A stretch of DNA of 64,000 nt, from NCBI GenBank assembly GCA_018401115.1, contig JAGYKX010000005.1, positions 744,001 to 808,000 of the forward strand, written 5' to 3'. Positions 31,633-61,988 of the stretch are shown here, one piece after another. The translations under genes were made by a program, and so were the position numbers. Source of the stretch: Flavobacteriaceae bacterium (GTDB taxonomy: Bacteria; Bacteroidota; Bacteroidia; Flavobacteriales; Flavobacteriaceae). Below the pieces are notes generated by a model. It did not search any database. It had not been told where the DNA came from and saw nothing but the letters and a program-made list of their open reading frames with translations. The first letter of the stretch is position 1. Each line of letters starts with the position of its first letter.

Positions 31633-33027
31633 TTATTTTTTTAATTTCATGTTTTTAGGATCCCATAAAATGGCCTTGTCCTGATAGTAACTGTCATTAC
31701 ATGCTAAGGCTGGTGCAGCTGCCCTGTAACCGAAAACAGCGTCTTCTACCACCGATTGTCCGCCTCTAATTGCAGTAAGCCAATTACCAAAATGATCGTG
31801 ATGTGCCCCTAGGTAACCTTTTTCTGCTTCATACACAATCTCCTCTTGAGGCTTCATTTTTTTTCTAGCAACTGTGTTAGAAAAACTACTATCTTTTGCT
31901 TGAGTAGCCAAATAGGGGTCTGTCTCAAAACTTTCTGCATTTCTCCTCACAATTACTTTATCCCATTGCACATCCATAGCGCCTTCACTACCAACAATGC
32001 GCAAATAAGTAGTTCCAGAGGTGCCATCTACAAAATTACATCTTAACGAGAGATTAAAAGCAGGGTGCTGCGGGGTTTCAGGATAGTCAAATACCCCTAA
32101 CATTACATCTGGCACCTCTCTCCCATCATTCCAGTATCTAAGGCCTCCGGAAGCGTAAATCTGATCAGGTCCATAAGAATTAGTGATAAAGTGTAAGCTA
32201 GAAAATAAGTGCACAAATAAATCTCCTGACATTCCTGTGCCGTAATCTCTGTAATTTCTCCATCTAAAAAAACGCATTGGATCAAAATCCCTCTTGTGGG
32301 TGTTACTCAAAAAAGTATCCCAATCTACAGTTTCAGTAGAAGCGTCTTCTGGGATATTGTATTGCCAAGCTCCTGTAGGGCTTCTTCTGGCCCAAAACCC
32401 TTCTGCATAATTAATATCTCCTATGGCACCTTGCGCCAATAGCTCTCTAGCTTTTTCATTTCCAAGAGAGGAAAGTCCCTGACTACCCACCATAAAAACT
32501 TTTCCAGTTTTTCTTTGTGCATTTATAACATCGTATCCTTCCTCCAAACTGTGAACCATAGGTTTTTCACAATACACATGTTTTCCAGCATACATAGCAT
32601 CTATAGAAATTTGCTTGTGCCAATGATCAGGTGTTCCAATAATAACTGCGTCTACCTCGGGAAGAGCGAGTATTTCCTTATAATCTCTTGTAGTGAAAAT
32701 GTCATTCCCCCATCTAGAGGTAGCCGTGTCCAAGTGACCTTGATATAGGTCACAAACAGCGACTAATTTCACACCAGCATGCGCTAAAACAGCATAGGTG
32801 TCTTGTGTTCCCATTCCCCCAGCCCCTATGAGAGCGATCTGGATTGTTGAATTTTTTGATAAAAGACCTGAGTTATAACTTCTTTTGAGCGTATGTATAG
32901 AACTTACAGATAGAAGTGAGGGGGTAGTAGCTAGCGCCATACTCCCTATGGAGAATTTTTGAACAAACTGCTTTCTACTCCACCCAAAACTAGAGGGAGC
33001 GTTTGATGATAGATTTGGTTTTTTCAT
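31633..33027 (-). CDS. Gfo/Idh/MocA-family oxidoreductase, exported
   Basis: The 464-residue protein begins with an export signal containing SRKQFVQKF, a twin-arginine-like motif in which Arg-Lys (R18, K19) replaces Arg-Arg. The NAD(P)-binding motif is GAGGMG (68-73), the catalytic Lys lies in EKPMVH, and a C-terminal beta-sheet domain follows. Such enzymes oxidise sugars, often at C3, and here the DUF1080 partner downstream supports periplasmic 3-keto-sugar chemistry. It is divergent from the carH-like gene, with a shared regulatory region of about 155 nt. Confidence 0.85.
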   Translation of the reverse strand: MKKPNLSSNAPSSFGWSRKQFVQKFSIGSMALATTPSLLSVSSIHTLKRSYNSGLLSKNSTIQIALIGAGGMGTQDTYAVLAHAGVKLVAVCDLYQGHLDTATSRWGNDIFTTRDYKEILALPEVDAVIIGTPDHWHKQISIDAMYAGKHVYCEKPMVHSLEEGYDVINAQRKTGKVFMVGSQGLSSLGNEKARELLAQGAIGDINYAEGFWARRSPTGAWQYNIPEDASTETVDWDTFLSNTHKRDFDPMRFFRWRNYRDYGTGMSGDLFVHLFSSLHFITNSYGPDQIYASGGLRYWNDGREVPDVMLGVFDYPETPQHPAFNLSLRCNFVDGTSGTTYLRIVGSEGAMDVQWDKVIVRRNAESFETDPYLATQAKDSSFSNTVARKKMKPQEEIVYEAEKGYLGAHHDHFGNWLTAIRGGQSVVEDAVFGYRAAAPALACNDSYYQDKAILWDPKNMKLKK

Positions 33028-33095
33028 AATACAAACTTGGTTGGTTGGTCGGTATTAAGTTATAAAAAATACGGCATAAAAAACTCCTGCACTTC

Positions 33096-33163
33096 CAAAA
33101 CATAATTATTGTTTAATATTAATTAAAAATAGATAAACAAATTAGATTAAAATTGTAACTTTG
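33096..33163. promoter_or_regulatory. Operator-like inverted repeat and promoter between the Gfo/Idh gene and carH-like gene
   Basis: TGTTTA (33110-33115) and TAAACA (33134-33139) form an inverted repeat with an 18-nt spacer. On the plus strand the right arm falls where the -33 box of the carH-like promoter should be, 16 nt before the -7 box TAACTTTG (33156-33163). On the minus strand a weaker -7-like TATGTTTT lies to the left (33097-33104). The same element, with the flank AATAGATAAACAAA, recurs at 59950-59979. Confidence 0.6.
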
Positions 33164-33183
33164 TTTAAGTTCAAAAAAATCAA

Positions 33184-34086
33184 ATGAGTTTAGTAAAAAA
33201 GACCTTTAGCATAAAAGATCTGGAAAATCTATCTGGGATAAAAGCCCATACCATAAGGATTTGGGAGAAAAGATACAACCTCCTTAGTCCTGAGCGCACC
33301 CAGACAAATATAAGAATGTATAGCCTTTTGAGTCTACAGAAACTCTTAAACATAACGCTATTGTATGAGAATGGACTGAAAATTTCAAAAATTGCTCAAC
33401 TAAAAAACGAAGAAATTCCTCTAAAAGTCAGGGAAATTATAGACGAGAAGTCCGTCAAAAACAATATGATGAATGCATTTAAGCTATCCATGATTAATTT
33501 TGACCAAAACTTGTTTTACAGCACTTACAACCAATTGGTGGTAGATTTAAGTTTTAGAGAAATTTTCAAAGAATATTTTATTCCACTACTTCAAGAATTG
33601 GGTTATTTGTGGCAATCTAATACCATTAGTACGACCCATGAGCATTTCATAACAAATTTAGTCAAGCAAAAGGTTTACACAAACACAGAAAAAGTACATA
33701 GGTCTGAATATGTGAACAACAAATCATTTGTACTGTTTTTACCTGAAAATGAGATTCACGAACTAGGCATTTTATATCTCAATTATGAATTGAATCTCAG
33801 GGGGTATAAAAGTATATTTTTAGGACAGAGTGTTCCTATAGAAAACTTAGAGCCTTTGATTGCCAGTAATGAGTTTGTTGAATTTATTGCTTATGTGACC
33901 GTAGAACCTTCAAAAGAGAAAATTGATAAATACTTACAAAAATTCAAAAAGAAAATATTAGATAAAAAAGACTGTAGGCTGTCTCTTTTGGGTTTTCAAA
34001 CGCAGTTTGTAGATCTAAATACTAAACCAGAAAACGTAGGTGTATACAGAGGTTTCGAAGATTTAATCGAAACCTTAAATTTATAA
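33184..34086 (+). CDS. CarH/LitR-like MerR-family regulator with a B12-binding photoreceptor domain
   Basis: The 300-residue protein has an N-terminal MerR helix-turn-helix (residues 7-75, SIKDLENLSGIKAHTIRIWE). A four-helix bundle follows, with the CarH signature Wx9EH (W143, E153, H154), and a Rossmann B12-binding domain with ExHxxG (E190, H192, G195). H192 would be the lower cobalt ligand. In CarH proteins adenosylcobalamin keeps the repressor tetrameric in the dark, and light releases it from DNA. Its position 3 nt upstream of crtI, in the same direction, implies control of carotenoid synthesis and of itself through the inverted repeat upstream. Confidence 0.88.
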   Translation: MSLVKKTFSIKDLENLSGIKAHTIRIWEKRYNLLSPERTQTNIRMYSLLSLQKLLNITLLYENGLKISKIAQLKNEEIPLKVREIIDEKSVKNNMMNAFKLSMINFDQNLFYSTYNQLVVDLSFREIFKEYFIPLLQELGYLWQSNTISTTHEHFITNLVKQKVYTNTEKVHRSEYVNNKSFVLFLPENEIHELGILYLNYELNLRGYKSIFLGQSVPIENLEPLIASNEFVEFIAYVTVEPSKEKIDKYLQKFKKKILDKKDCRLSLLGFQTQFVDLNTKPENVGVYRGFEDLIETLNL

Positions 34087-34089
34087 TAA

Positions 34090-35541
34090 ATGAAACATAT
34101 TAGCATAATAGGATCTGGTTTCTCTGCATTATCTGCCGCTTGTTATTTAGCAAAAGCAGGACACAGTGTAGATGTATACGAAAAAAATAATACGGTTGGC
34201 GGAAGAGCCAGACAATTAAAGAGGGAGGGCTTTACATTTGATATGGGACCAAGTTGGTACTGGATGCCTGATATTTTTGATAAGTTTTTTGTAGATTTTG
34301 ATCAAAAAACATCTGATTATTATCAGTTAGATAAGCTTAGTCCTGCTTATAAGGTGTATTTTAACCAAGGGGATTTAACCATTGGAGATAGTTTAGAGAA
34401 AATCATTCAAGCCTTTGAAGAAATTGAAGTGGGAAGTGGTGCTAAACTGGAGAAATTCATAGCGGAAGCACAAGACCATTACAGGATTGCAATAGATAAA
34501 ATAGTTTTAAGACCCGGTTTATCTCCACTCGAATTGGTTACGCCCGAAACCATTACTAGGGTAGATAGATTCTTCACAACAATCAGTCAAAGAGTAAGAA
34601 AAGATTTTAAGAATCCCAAATTAATAGCAACACTTGAGTTTCCAGTATTGTTTTTAGGAGCAAAACCTAATCAAACACCCTCTTTCTATAGTTTTATGAA
34701 TTTTGCGGATTTTGGTTTGGGCACTTGGCACCCTAAAGGTGGTATGTATGAGATTGTTTTGGCTATGGAAAAATTAGCGATTTCATTAGGAGTCAATATA
34801 AACACCAATAGTCCAGTAGATAAAATAATTGTAAAAAATAAGAAAGCTGTAGGAATTTCCGTGAAAGGAAAAGATATTATGTCTGATGTTGTATTGAGTG
34901 GTGCAGATTATCACCATTCAGAAACCTTATTAGACCCATCTTTCAGGCAGTATTCAGAGGCCTATTGGGATAAGAAAACCTTTGCCCCCTCCTCTCTACT
35001 ATTTTATGTAGGATTCAATGAGAGGGTGCCAAATGTGGAACACCATAACCTATTCTTTGATAGTGATTTCACAAAACATGCAGAAGAAATATACGACAAT
35101 GCTGTTTGGCCTTCTGATCCATTGTTTTACGCCAATTTCCCCTCCATTTCTGACCCTTCTATGGCCCCGGAAAATTGTGAAACAGGTTTTTTCTTAATTC
35201 CAATTGCTCCAGATTTAGAAGACAATGAATCGTTAAGAGCACAATATTTTGATAAAATAATGGACAGGTTTGAACTTAAAATTGGCAAAAACATTCGCAA
35301 AAATATTATCTTTAAAGATTCTTTTTGCGTGAAAGACTTTAAAGAAAGTTATAACTCATACAAAGGAAATGCCTATGGTATGGCCAACACTTTAATGCAG
35401 ACTGCTTTTTTAAGGCCAAAACTAAAAAGTAGTAAAGTGCGAAATTTATATTTCACAGGCCAACTTACGGTTCCAGGACCAGGTGTTCCACCAGCACTTA
35501 TTTCTGGAAAAATTGTGGCAGACCTTATTTCAAAAAAATAA
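34090..35541 (+). CDS. crtI: Phytoene desaturase CrtI
   Basis: The 483-residue FAD enzyme has the N-terminal dinucleotide motif GSGFSALSAACYL, VGGRARQLKREGFTFDMGPS, and the C-terminal CrtI signature FTGQLTVPGPGVPPALISGK. It introduces the double bonds that turn phytoene into lycopene at the membrane. It is the first biosynthetic gene of the operon, 3 nt after the carH-like gene and 5 nt before crtB. Confidence 0.93.
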   Translation: MKHISIIGSGFSALSAACYLAKAGHSVDVYEKNNTVGGRARQLKREGFTFDMGPSWYWMPDIFDKFFVDFDQKTSDYYQLDKLSPAYKVYFNQGDLTIGDSLEKIIQAFEEIEVGSGAKLEKFIAEAQDHYRIAIDKIVLRPGLSPLELVTPETITRVDRFFTTISQRVRKDFKNPKLIATLEFPVLFLGAKPNQTPSFYSFMNFADFGLGTWHPKGGMYEIVLAMEKLAISLGVNINTNSPVDKIIVKNKKAVGISVKGKDIMSDVVLSGADYHHSETLLDPSFRQYSEAYWDKKTFAPSSLLFYVGFNERVPNVEHHNLFFDSDFTKHAEEIYDNAVWPSDPLFYANFPSISDPSMAPENCETGFFLIPIAPDLEDNESLRAQYFDKIMDRFELKIGKNIRKNIIFKDSFCVKDFKESYNSYKGNAYGMANTLMQTAFLRPKLKSSKVRNLYFTGQLTVPGPGVPPALISGKIVADLISKK

Positions 35542-35546
35542 TACGG

Positions 35547-36398
35547 ATGAAAAGCCTATTTGACCAAGTCTCATATAGATGCAGTAAGCAAGTTACTGAA
35601 TCATATAGCACCTCATTTTCACTTGCCACTAAAATGCTAGATATTAGTATAAGGCAAGACATTTATAACATCTATGGTTTTGTGAGATTTGCAGACGAAA
35701 TTGTAGATAGTTTTCATGATTATGACAAGGCTTCTCTGTTTAAAAGATTTGAAAATGATCTAGCCAATGCTTTTAAAGAGAAGATCAGTCTAAACCCTAT
35801 TCTAAATGCTTTTCAACATACATTTCATAAGTACGAAATTCCTATGGATCTGGTTTCTGCCTTTATGAAAAGTATGAAAATGGATTTAACTAAAGAGGCT
35901 TATATTACAGAAGAAGAATACAAAGAATACATCTATGGCTCTGCAGATGTTGTAGGACTTATGTGCTTAAAGGTTTTTGTTAAAGGAAACATGGAACAGT
36001 ACAACAATTTAAAAGATGCCGCAATGGCTTTAGGGTCTGCCTTTCAAAAGGTAAACTTTCTCAGAGATCTTAAGGCAGACTTTGAAGGACTCAATAGAAC
36101 CTACTTTCCTAACACAAATCTAAAGGCCTTAGATGAAGCGGCAAAGGCGAGGATCATAGAAGAAATTCAAGAAGATTTTTCAAATGGATTGGCAGGAATA
36201 GTTTTACTTCCTAAAGAAGTGAAATTTGGGGTATATACTGCCTACATATATTATTATAAATTACTTAAGAAACTAAAGAACACGCCTCCATTAGAAATAA
36301 AAAACACTAGAATTAGGGTAGCTAATCATCAAAAGATTGGACTGTTGTTAAAATCTTATTTGAGTTGTAAATTTAACCTAGTTATTAAACCTTCATAA
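35547..36398 (+). CDS. crtB: Phytoene synthase CrtB
   Basis: The 283-residue protein has both Asp-rich substrate motifs of the squalene/phytoene synthase family: DEIVD (50-54) and DLKAD (174-178) followed by NRTYFP. The AYIYYYKLL helix and length also fit. It condenses two geranylgeranyl diphosphate molecules into phytoene. No geranylgeranyl diphosphate synthase gene lies in the cluster. Confidence 0.93.
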   Translation: MKSLFDQVSYRCSKQVTESYSTSFSLATKMLDISIRQDIYNIYGFVRFADEIVDSFHDYDKASLFKRFENDLANAFKEKISLNPILNAFQHTFHKYEIPMDLVSAFMKSMKMDLTKEAYITEEEYKEYIYGSADVVGLMCLKVFVKGNMEQYNNLKDAAMALGSAFQKVNFLRDLKADFEGLNRTYFPNTNLKALDEAAKARIIEEIQEDFSNGLAGIVLLPKEVKFGVYTAYIYYYKLLKKLKNTPPLEIKNTRIRVANHQKIGLLLKSYLSCKFNLVIKPS

Positions 36399-36408
36399 AT
36401 AAAAAAAA

Positions 36409-36855
36409 ATGCATCTACTTTATTGGATTTTATGCTTTATTGCTACGTTTTGTATTATGGAATTCATGGCTTGGTTCTCGCATAAATATATCATGCATGG
36501 GTTTTTATGGCATTTACATGAAGACCACCATAAAAAAGACCACGACAACTGGTTTGAGAGAAATGACACTTTCTTTATTTTTTATGCGGTCGTTAGTATG
36601 GGCTTTATAATAACTGCAGAAAACACTTCTTTTTGGCAAGGATGGCCCATTGGATTGGGTATTATGGCTTATGGTTTTACTTATTTCATGGTACACGACA
36701 TTTTTATACACCAACGCTTTAAATGGTTTAGAAACGCAAATAACAAATACGCAAAAGGAATTAGAAGGGCTCATAAAATTCACCACAAACATTTAGGAAA
36801 AGAACATGGAGAGTGCTTTGGAATGTTGTTTGTCCCCTTTAAATATTTCAAATAA
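36409..36855 (+). CDS. crtZ: Beta-carotene 3-hydroxylase CrtZ
   Basis: This 148-residue membrane protein of the fatty-acid hydroxylase superfamily has the di-iron histidine clusters HKYIMH (25-30), HLHEDHH (35-41), H96 and H101 (VHDIFIHQR), and HKIHHKH (122-128). The start M-HLLYWILCFIATF is membrane-spanning. It hydroxylates the beta-ring at C3, giving zeaxanthin from beta-carotene. Its presence implies that a lycopene cyclase exists elsewhere in the genome. Its stop overlaps the start of crtD (TAATG). Confidence 0.92.
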   Translation: MHLLYWILCFIATFCIMEFMAWFSHKYIMHGFLWHLHEDHHKKDHDNWFERNDTFFIFYAVVSMGFIITAENTSFWQGWPIGLGIMAYGFTYFMVHDIFIHQRFKWFRNANNKYAKGIRRAHKIHHKHLGKEHGECFGMLFVPFKYFK

Positions 36856-38333
36856 TGCAAAAAAAGGCCATTGTTATTGGCGCAGGTATAGCTGGATTAG
36901 CTTGTAGCTTAAGATTGCAAAAAAAAGGCTATCAGGTAACTGTTATTGAAAGAAATAGTTATACGGGTGGTAAAATGAATGTGCTGAAAAAAGATGGATA
37001 TAGATTTGATCTTGGTCCCTCATTATTTACTATGCCAGAATTGGTGGAATCTCTTTTTGAATTATTTGAAAAGCCAGTTGATAATTACTTTACTTATAAA
37101 AAAGAGTCTGTAATTTGTCATTATTTCTGGCCTGATGGAAGCTTCTTTAAGGCATCGGCGGAGCCAGAAAAATGGATCAAAGAAGCTGCAGATTTTTTCG
37201 AAACACCCTCAGAAATTTTAAAAGACTATTTAGATAATAGTGCCAAAAAATACGCTTTAACCGCTCCAATTTTCTTAGAAAAATCACTGCATGATTGGAA
37301 CACATACTTTAGTACTCATACACTAAAAGCTATTTTTAATTTAGGCGCTTTAGATCTATTTAGTTCACTAGACAAACACCATAAAAATATATTTACAAAT
37401 AAAAAGCTCATACAATATTTTAACAGGTTTGCCACCTATAATGGCTCCTCTCCCTTCAAGACTTCTGCTATTATGAGTATGATTCCTCATTTAGAAATGC
37501 ACAAAGGGACTTATTTCCCAACAGAGGGTATGCATGCTATAGGACAATCGCTTTTTCGATTGGCCAAAGATGTGGGAGTCCGTTTTCTACTTGAAACCCC
37601 CGTACTTAAAATTAATGTCAAAAACAATAGCGCAAAGGGGGTGGAAATATCCGTAAATGGAGAAAACCAACACTTAGAAGCAGACGTGGTAGTTTCCAAT
37701 GCAGATGTGTTTCACACCTATGAAAAACTACTTCCAACCATTCGAACACCTAAGAGAATTGTCCAAGAGGAGAGATCGAGTTCTGGGCTCATATTTTATT
37801 GGGGTATTGCTACCACTTTCCCTTCCTTAAACCTTCATAATATTTTTTTCAGTGATGACTATGAAAGTGAATTCAAAGAAATATTTGAAAAACACACCCT
37901 GCCTTCTGATCCAACAATTTATGTAAATATAAGTTCAAAGGAAAAACCTTCGGACGCCCCTGAAAATTGTGAAAATTGGTTTGTCATGGTCAACGCCCCA
38001 GCCAATAAAGGTCAGGACTGGGAAGATTTAAAACAAAAAATCAAGCATACAATTATCCAGAAATTATCTAATATATTGGGGGTTAATATATCTGACTATA
38101 TTGTCTGTGAAGAAATTCTAGACCCAATTGGTATAGAAAAAAGCACTAGTGCATACCAAGGTGCCCTTTACGGCACTTCAAGTAACGATCCTAAAGCAGC
38201 ATTTTTAAGACAATCTAATAAAAGCCATATTGATAATTTATTTTTTTGCGGTGGATCTGCACATCCTGGTGGTGGAATTCCGCTATGTCTTCAGTCTGCA
38301 AAAATTACGGCTGATCTAGTTCCAGCAATTTAA
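36855..38333 (+). CDS. crtD: CrtI-like carotenoid 3,4-desaturase CrtD
   Basis: The 492-residue protein is a second CrtI-family enzyme, with FAD motif GAGIAGLACSLRL, YTGGKMNVLKKDGYRFDLGPS, and C-terminal FFCGGSAHPGGGIPLCLQSAK. The SAHPGGGIP form is typical of 1-hydroxycarotenoid 3,4-desaturases (CrtD) and not of phytoene desaturases. In flavobacteria CrtD acts with CruF to make saproxanthin- and myxol-type end groups. The context with cruF downstream supports this role over that of a second phytoene desaturase. Confidence 0.85.
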   Translation: MQKKAIVIGAGIAGLACSLRLQKKGYQVTVIERNSYTGGKMNVLKKDGYRFDLGPSLFTMPELVESLFELFEKPVDNYFTYKKESVICHYFWPDGSFFKASAEPEKWIKEAADFFETPSEILKDYLDNSAKKYALTAPIFLEKSLHDWNTYFSTHTLKAIFNLGALDLFSSLDKHHKNIFTNKKLIQYFNRFATYNGSSPFKTSAIMSMIPHLEMHKGTYFPTEGMHAIGQSLFRLAKDVGVRFLLETPVLKINVKNNSAKGVEISVNGENQHLEADVVVSNADVFHTYEKLLPTIRTPKRIVQEERSSSGLIFYWGIATTFPSLNLHNIFFSDDYESEFKEIFEKHTLPSDPTIYVNISSKEKPSDAPENCENWFVMVNAPANKGQDWEDLKQKIKHTIIQKLSNILGVNISDYIVCEEILDPIGIEKSTSAYQGALYGTSSNDPKAAFLRQSNKSHIDNLFFCGGSAHPGGGIPLCLQSAKITADLVPAI

Positions 38334-59089: not shown

Positions 59090-59761
59090 CTAAGCCATAC
59101 GTTCTTTAAATAAAAATTTTCCCAAATCAAATACCTGCTCTAAAGGCGTATTGTTAAATACTTCAAAAACAGTATTGATAGACTTTTCAATGAAAATATC
59201 TGTTTTTTCAAAACCTGGAGAATTGTCGTCCATCCAGAATTTAATGGTAAAGAGCAGTTGTACCCAAGCAGCTTCTGAAAATACAGTGGGTTGAAATTGT
59301 GTTAATTTTGATTGCGCACTTGAATTGTCAAGATCGATCAGGTCCTTTGTAAAAGATTTAAAATGATTACGTAAACCGCTTAAAGCCATTAAGCTGTGTA
59401 ACATATTTTTATTTGACTTTAGCGTGAATAAGACATAAGATCTATTTAAAGTGAGTAATTCAAAAAAACTAAAGAAGAAGCCAAGCATTTTTTCTCTGCT
59501 AGAAGTACTTGCAAAATCTGGATTTTTTTGGAGCAAACGCATGGTTTGAGAAAAAAATGCTTCCCAAACACCTTTTTCCAATGCTTCAATATTTCCAAAA
59601 AATTGATAAAAAGAGACTTCTTCAAAATCATGTGCCTTACAAAAGCCGTATACAGTCACTGGCTTTTTTTCGTTATTTAACACATCTTCCATGTAGGCAG
59701 AAATAATCTGATCTGCATCTAAAACACTTGCTTTTTTTGAGGATATTTTTTTTGTGGCCAT
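59090..59761 (-). CDS. TetR-family transcriptional regulator
   Basis: The 223-residue protein has an N-terminal TetR-type helix-turn-helix (residues 15-60, VYGFCKAHDFEEVSFYQFFGNIEALEKGVW) and a helical ligand-binding domain. The first 14 residues are lysine- and serine-rich. It lies 8 nt before the ABC1 kinase gene, so the two form one operon. Upstream, at 59826-59980, lie a hairpin, a promoter and an inverted repeat like that of the carH-like gene, which suggest a complex regulatory leader. Confidence 0.85.
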   Translation of the reverse strand: MATKKISSKKASVLDADQIISAYMEDVLNNEKKPVTVYGFCKAHDFEEVSFYQFFGNIEALEKGVWEAFFSQTMRLLQKNPDFASTSSREKMLGFFFSFFELLTLNRSYVLFTLKSNKNMLHSLMALSGLRNHFKSFTKDLIDLDNSSAQSKLTQFQPTVFSEAAWVQLLFTIKFWMDDNSPGFEKTDIFIEKSINTVFEVFNNTPLEQVFDLGKFLFKERMA

Positions 59762-59819
59762 TGACGATTTTTTGTTTAAGTAAAATTACAAAAAAATAAA
59801 ACTAAATAAAGTAGATTTA

Positions 59820-59931
59820 AAATAAGAAACGCACTTTGTAAAAAAGTGCGTTTCAAACCTAACCAATAAATAAACATAAGGAGTTGCGAATATTGATTTT
59901 GTCTTTTTCATAGCAAAGTATTTCCCATCTC
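59820..59931 (-). ncRNA. Candidate short transcript (sRNA or attenuated leader) upstream of TetR gene
   Basis: A promoter on the minus strand predicts a start near 59931. About 80-105 nt later a perfect 12-bp hairpin (GAAACGCACTTT at 59826-59837, AAAGTGCGTTTC at 59843-59854) is followed by TTATTTT, a weak T-run. The product would be a small RNA of about 110 nt, or the leader of the TetR-ABC1 transcript with an attenuator. An internal frame from 59911 encodes up to 41 residues (MKKTKSIFATPYVYLLV...) but runs through the hairpin. I do not recognise either product. Confidence 0.4.
59826..59854 (-). terminator. Hairpin between operator and TetR gene
   Basis: A perfect 12-bp stem with a 5-nt loop is followed on the minus strand by TTATTTT. 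It may act as a terminator or attenuator before the TetR gene. On the plus strand no T-run follows. Confidence 0.5.
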
Positions 59932-59936
59932 CAATA

Positions 59937-59980
59937 CAAATATAATGAATGTTTAATCATTTATACAAATAGATAAACAA
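59937..59980 (-). promoter_or_regulatory. Promoter overlapped by an operator-like inverted repeat
   Basis: On the minus strand TTTG (59966-59969), a 21-nt spacer and TATATTTG (59937-59944) form a good promoter. The inverted repeat TGTTTA (59950-59955) and TAAACA (59974-59979), again with an 18-nt spacer, covers its -33 box. The arms, the spacer length and the flank AATAGATAAACAAA match the element upstream of the carH-like gene. Confidence 0.6.
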
Positions 59981-60073
59981 AATTAACATGATTATAACAT
60001 ATTGCGATATGAAATTCTGTCGGATGCTGTGTCAGTTTGTCATATTGTTAAGGCTTGGTATTTTAATTGCTAA

Positions 60074-60081
60074 TAAGTTTG
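60074..60081 (+). promoter_or_regulatory. -7 box of htpG
   Basis: TAAGTTTG matches TAnnTTTG and lies 23 nt before the htpG ATG. I see no -33 box at consensus spacing. Confidence 0.45.
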
Positions 60082-60104
60082 TATAATTTTAAAATATATA
60101 AGTT

Positions 60105-61988
60105 ATGGCCAAAGGCAAGATTAATGTATCAGTGGAAAATATTTTTCCCCTGATTAAAAAGTTTTTATACAGTGATCATGAAATATTTCTAAGAGAATTA
60201 ATTTCTAATGCTACTGACGCTACACTTAAATTAAAACACCTCACTGCTATAGGTGAAGCTAAAGTAGACTATGGAAACCCTCAGATAGAAATTAGAATTG
60301 ATAAAGAAGGAAAGAAAATTCATATTACAGATCAAGGACTTGGAATGACTTCTGATGAAGTTGAAAAATACATAAACCAAGTAGCATTTTCTGGAGCAGA
60401 AGAATTTTTAGACAAATATAAAGACGGGAAAGATGCTGGAATTATTGGTCATTTTGGCTTAGGCTTTTATTCTGCTTTCATGGTTGCTCATACTGTAGAA
60501 ATAATAACAAAAAGCTTCAAAGATGAGCCAGCAGCCCATTGGACCTGTGATGGATCTCCAAATTTCACCTTAGAAGCAGCCGACAAAAAAGATAGAGGTA
60601 CTGAAATCATTTTACATATAGCTGAGGATTCATTGGAGTTTTTAGATGAAAATAAAATTAGCGGGTTACTTAATAAATACAACAAATTCATGCCTGTTCC
60701 TATTGTTTTTGGAACTAAAACAGAAACCCTTCCAAAACCAGAAGGTGCCAAAGAAGAGGACCCAGCGCCAACACAGGAAGTACCAAACATCATAAACAAT
60801 CCAAATCCTGCATGGACCAAAGCCCCTGCAGATTTAAAAGATGAAGATTACAAAGGATTCTACAGAGAATTGTATCCCATGCAATTTGAGGAGCCATTAT
60901 TTCATATTCATTTGAATGTAGACTATCCTTTTAACCTCACAGGAATTTTATATTTTCCAAAACTAACCAACGACTTAAATATCCAAAAGGATAAAATACA
61001 ACTCTATCAAAATCAAGTATTTGTCACAGATAATGTAGAAGGGATAGTGCCTGAATTCTTAACCATGCTCAGAGGGGTAATTGACTCTCCAGATATTCCA
61101 TTAAATGTATCTAGGTCTTACCTTCAAGCAGACGGAGCAGTTAAAAAAATAGCTACCTATATCACAAAGAAAGTTGGAGACAAACTAAGTAGTTTATTCA
61201 AAAATGATAGGGAAGCTTTTGAAGAAAAGTGGAATGATATTAAAATTGTCATTGAATACGGTATGCTATCCGAAGATAAGTTCTTTGACAAGGCAGATAA
61301 ATTTGCGCTATACCCAACTGTAGACGGCTCTTACTATACTTTTGAAGAGTTGCAAGAAAAGTTAAAAGATAACCAGACAGATAAGGATGGCAAACTAATT
61401 CTGCTATATGCCTCAGACAAAGAAGCTCAACACGCCTATATTGCAGCGGCAAAAGCTAAACGGTACGAAGTGCTTCTTTTAGATTCTCCTATTGTGTCTC
61501 ATTTAATGCAAAAGCTTGAAACGTCAAAAGAAAAAATTTCCTTTGCAAGAGTAGACGCAGATCCAATAGATAAACTGATTCAAAAGGAAGAAAATGCTAT
61601 TTCTAAACTTTCAGATGAAGAGAAAGAAACCCTTAAAGCAAAAATTGAAAAAGTTACAGGAGAGGGAGGTTTAACTGTTCAATTAGAAGCCATGGATAGT
61701 GATAGTGCTCCTTTTGTAATTACAGAGCCAGAGTTTATGAGAAGAATGAAAGAGATGCAGCAAACCGGAGGGGGTGGAATGTTTGGTATGGGAAATATGC
61801 CTGACATGCACAACCTAATTGTCAATATTAACCACCCATTAGTAGGTGAAATTCTTCAAACCAAAACACAGAAAAAACAAGAGCGATTAATCAGTCAATC
61901 TATAGATCTAGCAAAACTCTCTAAAGGCTTACTTAAAGGAGCTGCCCTAAGTGATTTTATTTCTAGAAGCTATGAGATGATTAAATAA
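60105..61988 (+). CDS. htpG: Molecular chaperone HtpG (Hsp90)
   Basis: The 627-residue Hsp90 has the N-terminal GHKL ATPase (FLRELISNATDATLKLKHL, DQGLGMT, GHFGLGFYSAFMVA), the middle domain with the conserved Arg in PLNVSRSYLQ, and a C-terminal dimerisation domain. The segment near residues 205-235, rich in Pro and Glu, and the GGGGMFGMGN insertion near 560 look like the usual Bacteroidota forms. It folds and maintains client proteins and is usually stress-induced. A strong terminator follows. Confidence 0.95.
   Translation: MAKGKINVSVENIFPLIKKFLYSDHEIFLRELISNATDATLKLKHLTAIGEAKVDYGNPQIEIRIDKEGKKIHITDQGLGMTSDEVEKYINQVAFSGAEEFLDKYKDGKDAGIIGHFGLGFYSAFMVAHTVEIITKSFKDEPAAHWTCDGSPNFTLEAADKKDRGTEIILHIAEDSLEFLDENKISGLLNKYNKFMPVPIVFGTKTETLPKPEGAKEEDPAPTQEVPNIINNPNPAWTKAPADLKDEDYKGFYRELYPMQFEEPLFHIHLNVDYPFNLTGILYFPKLTNDLNIQKDKIQLYQNQVFVTDNVEGIVPEFLTMLRGVIDSPDIPLNVSRSYLQADGAVKKIATYITKKVGDKLSSLFKNDREAFEEKWNDIKIVIEYGMLSEDKFFDKADKFALYPTVDGSYYTFEELQEKLKDNQTDKDGKLILLYASDKEAQHAYIAAAKAKRYEVLLLDSPIVSHLMQKLETSKEKISFARVDADPIDKLIQKEENAISKLSDEEKETLKAKIEKVTGEGGLTVQLEAMDSDSAPFVITEPEFMRRMKEMQQTGGGGMFGMGNMPDMHNLIVNINHPLVGEILQTKTQKKQERLISQSIDLAKLSKGLLKGAALSDFISRSYEMIK

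Follow-up and report, generated by a model that had tools for sequence, protein, structure and literature searches.

The window analysed here, a stretch of 64,000 nucleotides from a Flavobacteriaceae bacterium, contains the palindrome TGTTTA-N18-TAAACA exactly twice (33110-33139 and 59950-59979), with no third copy. Site 1 lies upstream of a carH-crt operon, which begins with a gene for a CarH-like protein with MerR DNA-binding and B12-binding domains (33184-34086, plus strand; Pfam, NCBIfam and alignment with Thermus thermophilus CarH). This gene is followed on the same strand by carotenoid genes assigned by Pfam, namely two crtI-like desaturases of the Amino_oxidase family, a crtB-like gene (SQS_PSY) and a gene whose 148-aa product has no Pfam match (34090-38333), and by a gene for a carotenoid biosynthesis protein (PF04240, 38457-39107). 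As the first-pass annotation of this DNA had proposed, the right arm of site 1 lies on the -33 position of the carH-like promoter, whose -7 box, TAACTTTG, is found at 33156-33163 (plus strand). The flavobacterial -7 consensus is TAnnTTTG. A third half-site, TGTTTA (33162-33167, plus strand), which had escaped that annotation, overlaps this -7 box. The Gfo/Idh/MocA gene divergent from carH (31633-33027) could share site 1 across the interval 33027-33110.

Site 2 likewise contains, as had been noted before, the -33 TTTG of a promoter within its spacer (59966-59969, minus strand), 21 bp before the -7 box TATATTTG (59937-59944, minus strand). This promoter precedes a conserved unit of about 115 nt on the minus strand, predicted to be a small RNA (59817-59932, contig positions 803817-803932, ends approximate), with a terminator-like hairpin of 12 pairs and a T-rich tail (59826-59854, minus strand) that lies between site 2 and the next gene and was missing from the earlier annotation. 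Further along the same strand are a tetR-like gene (PF17931, 59090-59761) and an ABC1 kinase-like gene (PF03109, 57750-59081), while htpG (Pfam; 60105-61988, plus strand) diverges from the small RNA.

The two sites share their arms and the N18 spacer exactly, and an exact pair is not expected by chance: 2 were observed, whereas 100 dinucleotide shuffles of the window averaged 0.02 and none contained as many as 2. The form with at most one mismatch is only weakly separated from the shuffles (3 observed, 0.89 expected, 2 of 100 shuffles reaching 3), so the signal sits in the exact pair. The common right flank, AATAGATAAACAAA, is also exact at both sites (33128-33141 and 59968-59981, plus strand) and occurs exactly nowhere else in the genome; with at most one mismatch it was found 13 times, against 5 for the reversed control. 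As for the likeness of the outer sequences claimed for the minus strand, ATTATGTTTT is indeed present at site 1, whereas a box at that spacing was not seen by eye in G008 and G011. Similarly, a -7-like TATGTTTT occurs on the minus strand of site 1, spaced as at site 2, and was not seen in these two genomes. The palindrome itself is retained in relatives, at the position of site 1 with N18 in G001, G008 and G010 and with N19 in G011, and at that of site 2 with an exact N18 core in G008, G010, G011 and G012 and one mismatch in G001.

Five members of the window's genus, and G012, share the conserved small-RNA stretch. A covariance model built from these six sequences (R1, run with filters that lose weak matches) matched in 25 of 199 genomes, and in all 20 of the 25 loci that were examined the exact N18 core was present, its left end 43-49 bp upstream of the RNA, together with a TAnnTTT(G/A) box and a divergent htpG. 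A second model (R2), built from the 20 R1 loci, matched in 38 of 48 named genomes with CarH; among the 30 loci examined (16 further match rows were left out) the exact palindrome core was found in 28 and htpG in 30. Pooled, htpG lies beside the RNA in 50/50 loci and the exact core upstream of it in 48/50, counts that are not independent because the named and G-numbered genome sets overlap (G241/G160, G272/G224, G232/G198, G240/G184). Since the RNA models contain no operator sequence, the operator upstream constitutes independent evidence.

Across the 20 loci, aligned with MAFFT independently of the structure, both partners vary in 16 of 21 pairs, whereas 500 shuffles averaged 9.6 and none reached 16; helix 1, which pairs in 68% of cells, was named after viewing that alignment, which favours it. 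A fold of four leader sequences had given no covarying pair, unlike this 20-locus set. The best-kept part of the RNA is the unpaired UUUAUUUAUUGGUUAGGUUG between two helices. An Rfam scan of window positions 59600-60200 returned a single snoRNA match, whose 26 bits fall short of that family's cut-off of 100, and a scan of 10 of the 50 RNA loci gave no match. The unit thus combines a predicted promoter, a conserved structure, an intrinsic terminator and no conserved reading frame, and on these grounds we class it as a putative independent small RNA. It resembles Rfp18, a small RNA of the genus Flavobacterium (PMC9723704), in being a conserved flavobacterial small RNA; the comparison is by description, not sequence, and the available parts of that report describe no link of Rfp18 to light or CarH.

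The first-pass annotation had placed site 2 in front of the tetR-ABC1 genes, with these as its immediate target, a view that no longer holds, since the ~115-nt conserved unit intervenes and ends at the terminator-like hairpin. We also reject direct control of tetR-ABC1 by site 2 in this genome, given the hairpin between them and the occurrence of the RNA with its site where no tetR lies in the flank. It could still be argued that the region is a cis-acting leader of tetR-ABC1 (an attenuator or 5' UTR) and not a separate small-RNA promoter, as the 1.5-kb flank retrieved with the RNA contains tetR at 15/20 R1 and 25/30 R2 loci. However, the RNA, the site and the hairpin persist at the remaining 5/20 and 5/30 loci, the constant neighbour is the divergent htpG, and in G011 the tetR gene has an N19 palindrome of its own after the hairpin; we therefore regard a leader as unlikely. 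Slightly less likely still is that the short transcript acts by encoding a small peptide: a start-like CTATGA(A/G)AAA is kept in most copies, but among the six copies translated the reading frames differ (G000, G011 and G012) and are shifted by indels, which makes a peptide unlikely, and the terminator hairpin covaries; we reject this reading of the leader. Hence, we favour the small RNA as the unit that site 2 would control.

A genome-wide search for the element, as the first-pass annotation had suggested, was carried out in the window's genome (G000; 8 contigs totalling 2,365,501 bases, completeness 91%) and yielded seven copies of TGTTTA-N18-TAAACA against one for the reversed control. When all spacers of 8-30 were allowed, 16 arm pairs were counted and the reversed control gave 11, which shows that the arms by themselves are no rarity in this genome; 7 of these 16 have N18 and one has N19. 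Seven of 16 at one spacer corresponds to P ~2e-6 for one given spacer and to 5e-5 after multiplication by 23. Besides the two window sites, N18 copies lie 6 bp from the start of folE (GTP cyclohydrolase I; L001), ahead of a fasciclin-domain gene (L007), ahead of a Porph_ging gene (L006) and within the open reading frame that precedes an acyl-CoA dehydrogenase gene, 66 bp upstream of the latter (L005); no target gene was assigned to the seventh (L002). The N19 copy (L109) precedes a three-gene unit comprising a 164-aa protein that resembles SRPBCC by eye and matches neither Pfam nor NCBIfam, an SDR protein and a DNA photolyase. Palindromes near acyl-CoA dehydrogenase genes were seen in three genomes (L005, L117 and L137; Pfam assignment for L005 only).

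Sampled across the family, the sites do not show the random placement that would have spoken against an operator, being mostly outside open reading frames and ahead of genes: only 1 of 63 unique strict sites (fetched loci, a non-random sample) lies within an open reading frame of more than 100 aa, and this is L005 of the window's genome.

The CarH-like protein of the window contains a MerR-type DNA-binding domain (PF13411, 3.6e-13, residues 8-75) and a B12-binding region (PF02607, 4.1e-9). In an alignment with CarH of T. thermophilus it matches at W-x9-EH and H-x-x-G (lower-ligand His), which we take to be the CarH B12-binding motif. The Pfam search of this protein did not report the B12-binding fold domain PF02310, and the NCBIfam CarH equivalog NF052513 is its top match, yet with 69.6 bits against a cut-off of 400; we therefore call the protein CarH-type. 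Two CarH homologues each were observed in five congeneric genomes (G002-G006).

The carH promoters were compared in the best 80 of 545 named Flavobacteriaceae carH loci, which come from related species, so that the counts are not independent. The N18 palindrome with at most one mismatch lies within -120 to +12 of carH in 72 of these 80 loci, and N18 or N19 in 75, no other spacer exceeding 9. The core is exact in only 7 of the 80, the right arm being mostly TGAACA. In 59/80 the operator extends into the carH gene: its left arm falls on the -7 box, and ATGAACA, its right arm, supplies the start codon and the codon after it. In the window's genus, a full palindrome stands upstream and the left arm alone remains over the -7 box; the half-site at 33162-33167 probably represents the ancestral operator's left arm. 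A second copy was found between carH and the next gene, with N18 in 13 and N19 in 7 of the 80 best loci.

We further surveyed 199 Flavobacteriaceae genomes (198 genera) for the strict form of the element, TGTTTAAY-N14-RTTAAACA. The 150 genomes with a close CarH hold 381 strict sites, and 140 of them have at least one; 11 genomes with a divergent CarH homologue only (best E 1e-20 to ~1e-46) hold 2, and 38 genomes in which no CarH was found hold 8, confined to four genomes that are 73-81% complete. The reversed strict pattern occurs 13 times in total against 391 real sites, that is, 30 times less often. There are exceptions in both directions, as 10 of the 150 close-CarH genomes lack a strict site and G113, in which no CarH was found, has four. 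Together with its presence at 72 of the best 80 of 545 carH promoters, this co-occurrence with close CarH suggests that the element is very probably, as the first-pass annotation had guessed, a CarH operator marking a regulon.

TetR proteins bind palindromes, and the element could in principle belong to the adjoining TetR-like protein (TetR_C_23), which would then regulate its own gene together with the carotenoid and repair genes. Consistent with this, an N18 or N19 palindrome lies within 80 bp of the (partly extrapolated) start in 11 of 29 tetR homologues, and the three genomes with a divergent CarH and TetR (G018, G025, G036) hold 9 loose N18 sites against 1 in the control, 5 of the 9 being in G036. 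TetR presence was scored in 60 genomes, and there the loose sites follow CarH: genomes with both proteins (24) have 119 sites against 21 in the control and those with CarH and no TetR match (8) keep 22 against 6, 7 of the 8 having a site, whereas the two genomes with TetR alone have 1 against 1. Divergent CarH alone (6 genomes) gave 3 against 4, and the absence of both (17 genomes) 15 against 12. These presence and absence counts, along with the site at the best-80 carH promoters, lead us to reject TetR as the owner of the site, an assignment we judge improbable. Weaker still, to the point of being very improbable, is the notion that the pattern reflects only the -33/-7 spacing of AT-rich promoters and binds no protein: the sites do lie on promoters of AT-rich genomes, and in G000 the arms over all spacers scarcely exceed their control (16 against 11), but the palindrome is not tied to one register (it covers the -7 box and start codon at 59/80 of the best 80 of 545 carH loci, immediately precedes the gene and encloses a -7-like box, by eye, at crtI and proteorhodopsin, and stands upstream of the -7 box at tetR and the small RNA), and it tracks CarH, with unequal density in genomes with and without CarH and a reversed strict pattern 30 times rarer.

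With CarH as the preferred owner of the site, the genes behind the element outline a predicted regulon. Among the 63 unique strict sites (62 N18, 1 N19; a non-random sample drawn from chosen sites and best-per-genome loci), the site-gene pairs comprise 16 with FAS1 proteins (14 genes), 13 with crtI-like genes, 4 with tetR, 3 with SRPBCC-type genes, 2 each with proteorhodopsin and blh, and 1 each with TspO, MsrA, OsmC, photolyase and folE. A family of ~142 aa without a Pfam match accounts for 4 further pairs (L114, L125, L129, L249); in L114 and L125 a FolE-like gene, recognised by eye, follows the gene of this family. FAS1 (fasciclin) proteins form the largest group (L111, L120, L131, L132, L233, L234, L235, L238). 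In 8 pairs an mnmA-like gene (by eye) diverges from FAS1, and it is probably not a target of the site. The regulon predicted from these sites is wider than the first-pass annotation proposed, and the particular link it drew, between carotenoid synthesis and the TetR-ABC1 genes, stands in part: tetR has its own site in 11/29 homologues, and the window's tetR shows a two-mismatch copy near its start (by eye), whereas site 2 itself would here drive the small RNA.

Proteorhodopsin is a prominent member of this predicted regulon. PF01036 is present in 52 of the 199 genomes, and of 30 loci examined (24 further matches were left out) 27 were usable, L259 and L260 being excluded as sodium-pump type (by N-terminus, by eye) and L268 for want of a usable start. 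In genomes with CarH, N18 with at most one mismatch was found at 16 of 22 usable rhodopsin promoters, the next spacer reaching 3; in genomes without a CarH match it was found at 1 of 5, in a genome 73% complete. In the named genomes, 12 genes drawn from 48 of 50 loci were scored, after exclusion of a sub-cut-off fragment (L321) and two sodium-pump-type genes, and N18 or N19 lies at 11 of these 12 proton-pump-type genes. Most of the named proteorhodopsin promoters have a second palindrome (N18 or N19, at most one mismatch) 34-46 bp away (L312, L313, L315, L316, L317, L318, L319, L322, L323), possibly forming a tandem operator. Many proteorhodopsin promoters, like those of crtI, have a -7-like box within the palindrome, immediately followed by the right arm (by eye). 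Maribacter spongiicola and Croceivirga radicis each combine carH and the RNA with proteorhodopsin sites. The window's genome has a two-mismatch copy, TGTCTA-N18-TGAACA, between proteorhodopsin and the divergent blh, and the congeneric G009 and G008 have an exact palindrome at this gene pair (L094 and L101, among the matches listed).

Light raises rhodopsin gene expression in the marine flavobacterium Nonlabens, and the sodium-pump rhodopsin rises as well (PMC4831467, as far as the available text describes it). The palindrome is absent from the two sodium-pump-type genes identified by eye (L309, L310), though the proteorhodopsin genes of the same genomes have one; hence, light induction need not always use the site. 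Among the matches listed from the open-licence literature, mostly reviews together with a Vibrio and a Zobellia study, none named a regulator of light-raised rhodopsin expression.

In previously characterised systems, AdoCbl-bound CarH represses in the dark and light releases it, and the mapped operators, according to the available parts of these reports, consist of tandem 11-bp direct repeats, nnnnTnnACAn, with a TnnACA core and plastic in number, some comprising one full and two degenerate repeats (PMC8156234, PMC9304148). The flavobacterial system shares with CarH/LitR of T. thermophilus, Bacillus megaterium and Myxococcales the combination of MerR and B12-binding domains, a crt neighbour, a half-site core (the arm TAAACA fits TnnACA) and operators overlapping promoters (PMC8156234, PMC9304148), the last seen here at 72/80 carH loci (best 80 of 545) and with the 13 crtI-like genes behind strict sites. 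In contrast to CarH/LitR as those sources describe it, the flavobacterial element is an inverted repeat with a fixed 18-bp spacer, and its predicted regulon reaches proteorhodopsin, FAS1 proteins and a small RNA. The Myxococcus xanthus CarA operator was first described as inverted repeats overlapping or beside the -35 region and later re-read as direct repeats (PMC9304148, in its available text). The flavobacterial element departs from it: 216 unique exact sites repeat the inverted arrangement and its spacer, and at a distance of 11 bp TnnACA is all but absent. In the symmetrised set TnnACA occurs at +11 or -11 in 0.9% each, and we reject hidden exact 11-bp direct repeats on these figures, which concern exact repeats alone and not degenerate ones. 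Given the near absence of such repeats, a flavobacterial CarH would have to bind differently, either presenting two oppositely oriented DNA-binding domains or binding as another kind of oligomer. The core-to-core distance of 24 bp is wider than usual for MerR operators. With classical members of that family the element shares a palindrome within or overlapping the promoter (PMC8156234, in its available text), and it differs from them in this 24-bp distance and in its expected mode, repression. For MliR of Bizionia, another flavobacterial MerR-like protein, the available description gives no matching motif.

Collectively, we propose, with a probability of about 0.86, that TGTTTAAY-N14-RTTAAACA is the operator of a flavobacterial CarH-type protein governing a light-released regulon of photo-protection and phototrophy that would include the ~115-nt small RNA. 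By analogy with the known systems, AdoCbl-loaded CarH would in the dark occupy the inverted repeat across the promoters and repress them, and light, by breaking the cofactor, would make CarH release the DNA and so turn the regulon on. Its predicted members are carH-crt, the SRPBCC-SDR-photolyase unit, folE, FAS1 proteins, proteorhodopsin and blh, and the small RNA beside htpG, with tetR-ABC1 probably also included in many species; in the window, site 1 would control carH-crt and site 2 the small RNA.

We further consider it likely, though with less assurance than the operator assignment, that a B12 light sensor with a rigid inverted-repeat operator is the direct switch of proteorhodopsin phototrophy in Flavobacteriaceae and that it also governs light-induced small RNAs, conserved beside htpG, of a new family. 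Many marine bacteria need to import vitamin B12, on which phototrophy would depend were CarH the switch. A flavobacterial light transcriptome was reportedly described by Kimura et al. in 2011. Among the matches listed from the open-licence literature, none named this RNA, an operator for CarH in any of the Bacteroidetes, or a role of CarH in regulating proteorhodopsin. If true, our reading would mean that CarH operators come in a second design, which would help in understanding how different DNA sequences are read by the same photoreceptor fold; it would also bring a light-induced small RNA under CarH-type control. A second, weaker RNA-model match was observed in G232, G235, G243, G247, G259, G266, G273 and G279, possibly representing a paralogous small RNA.
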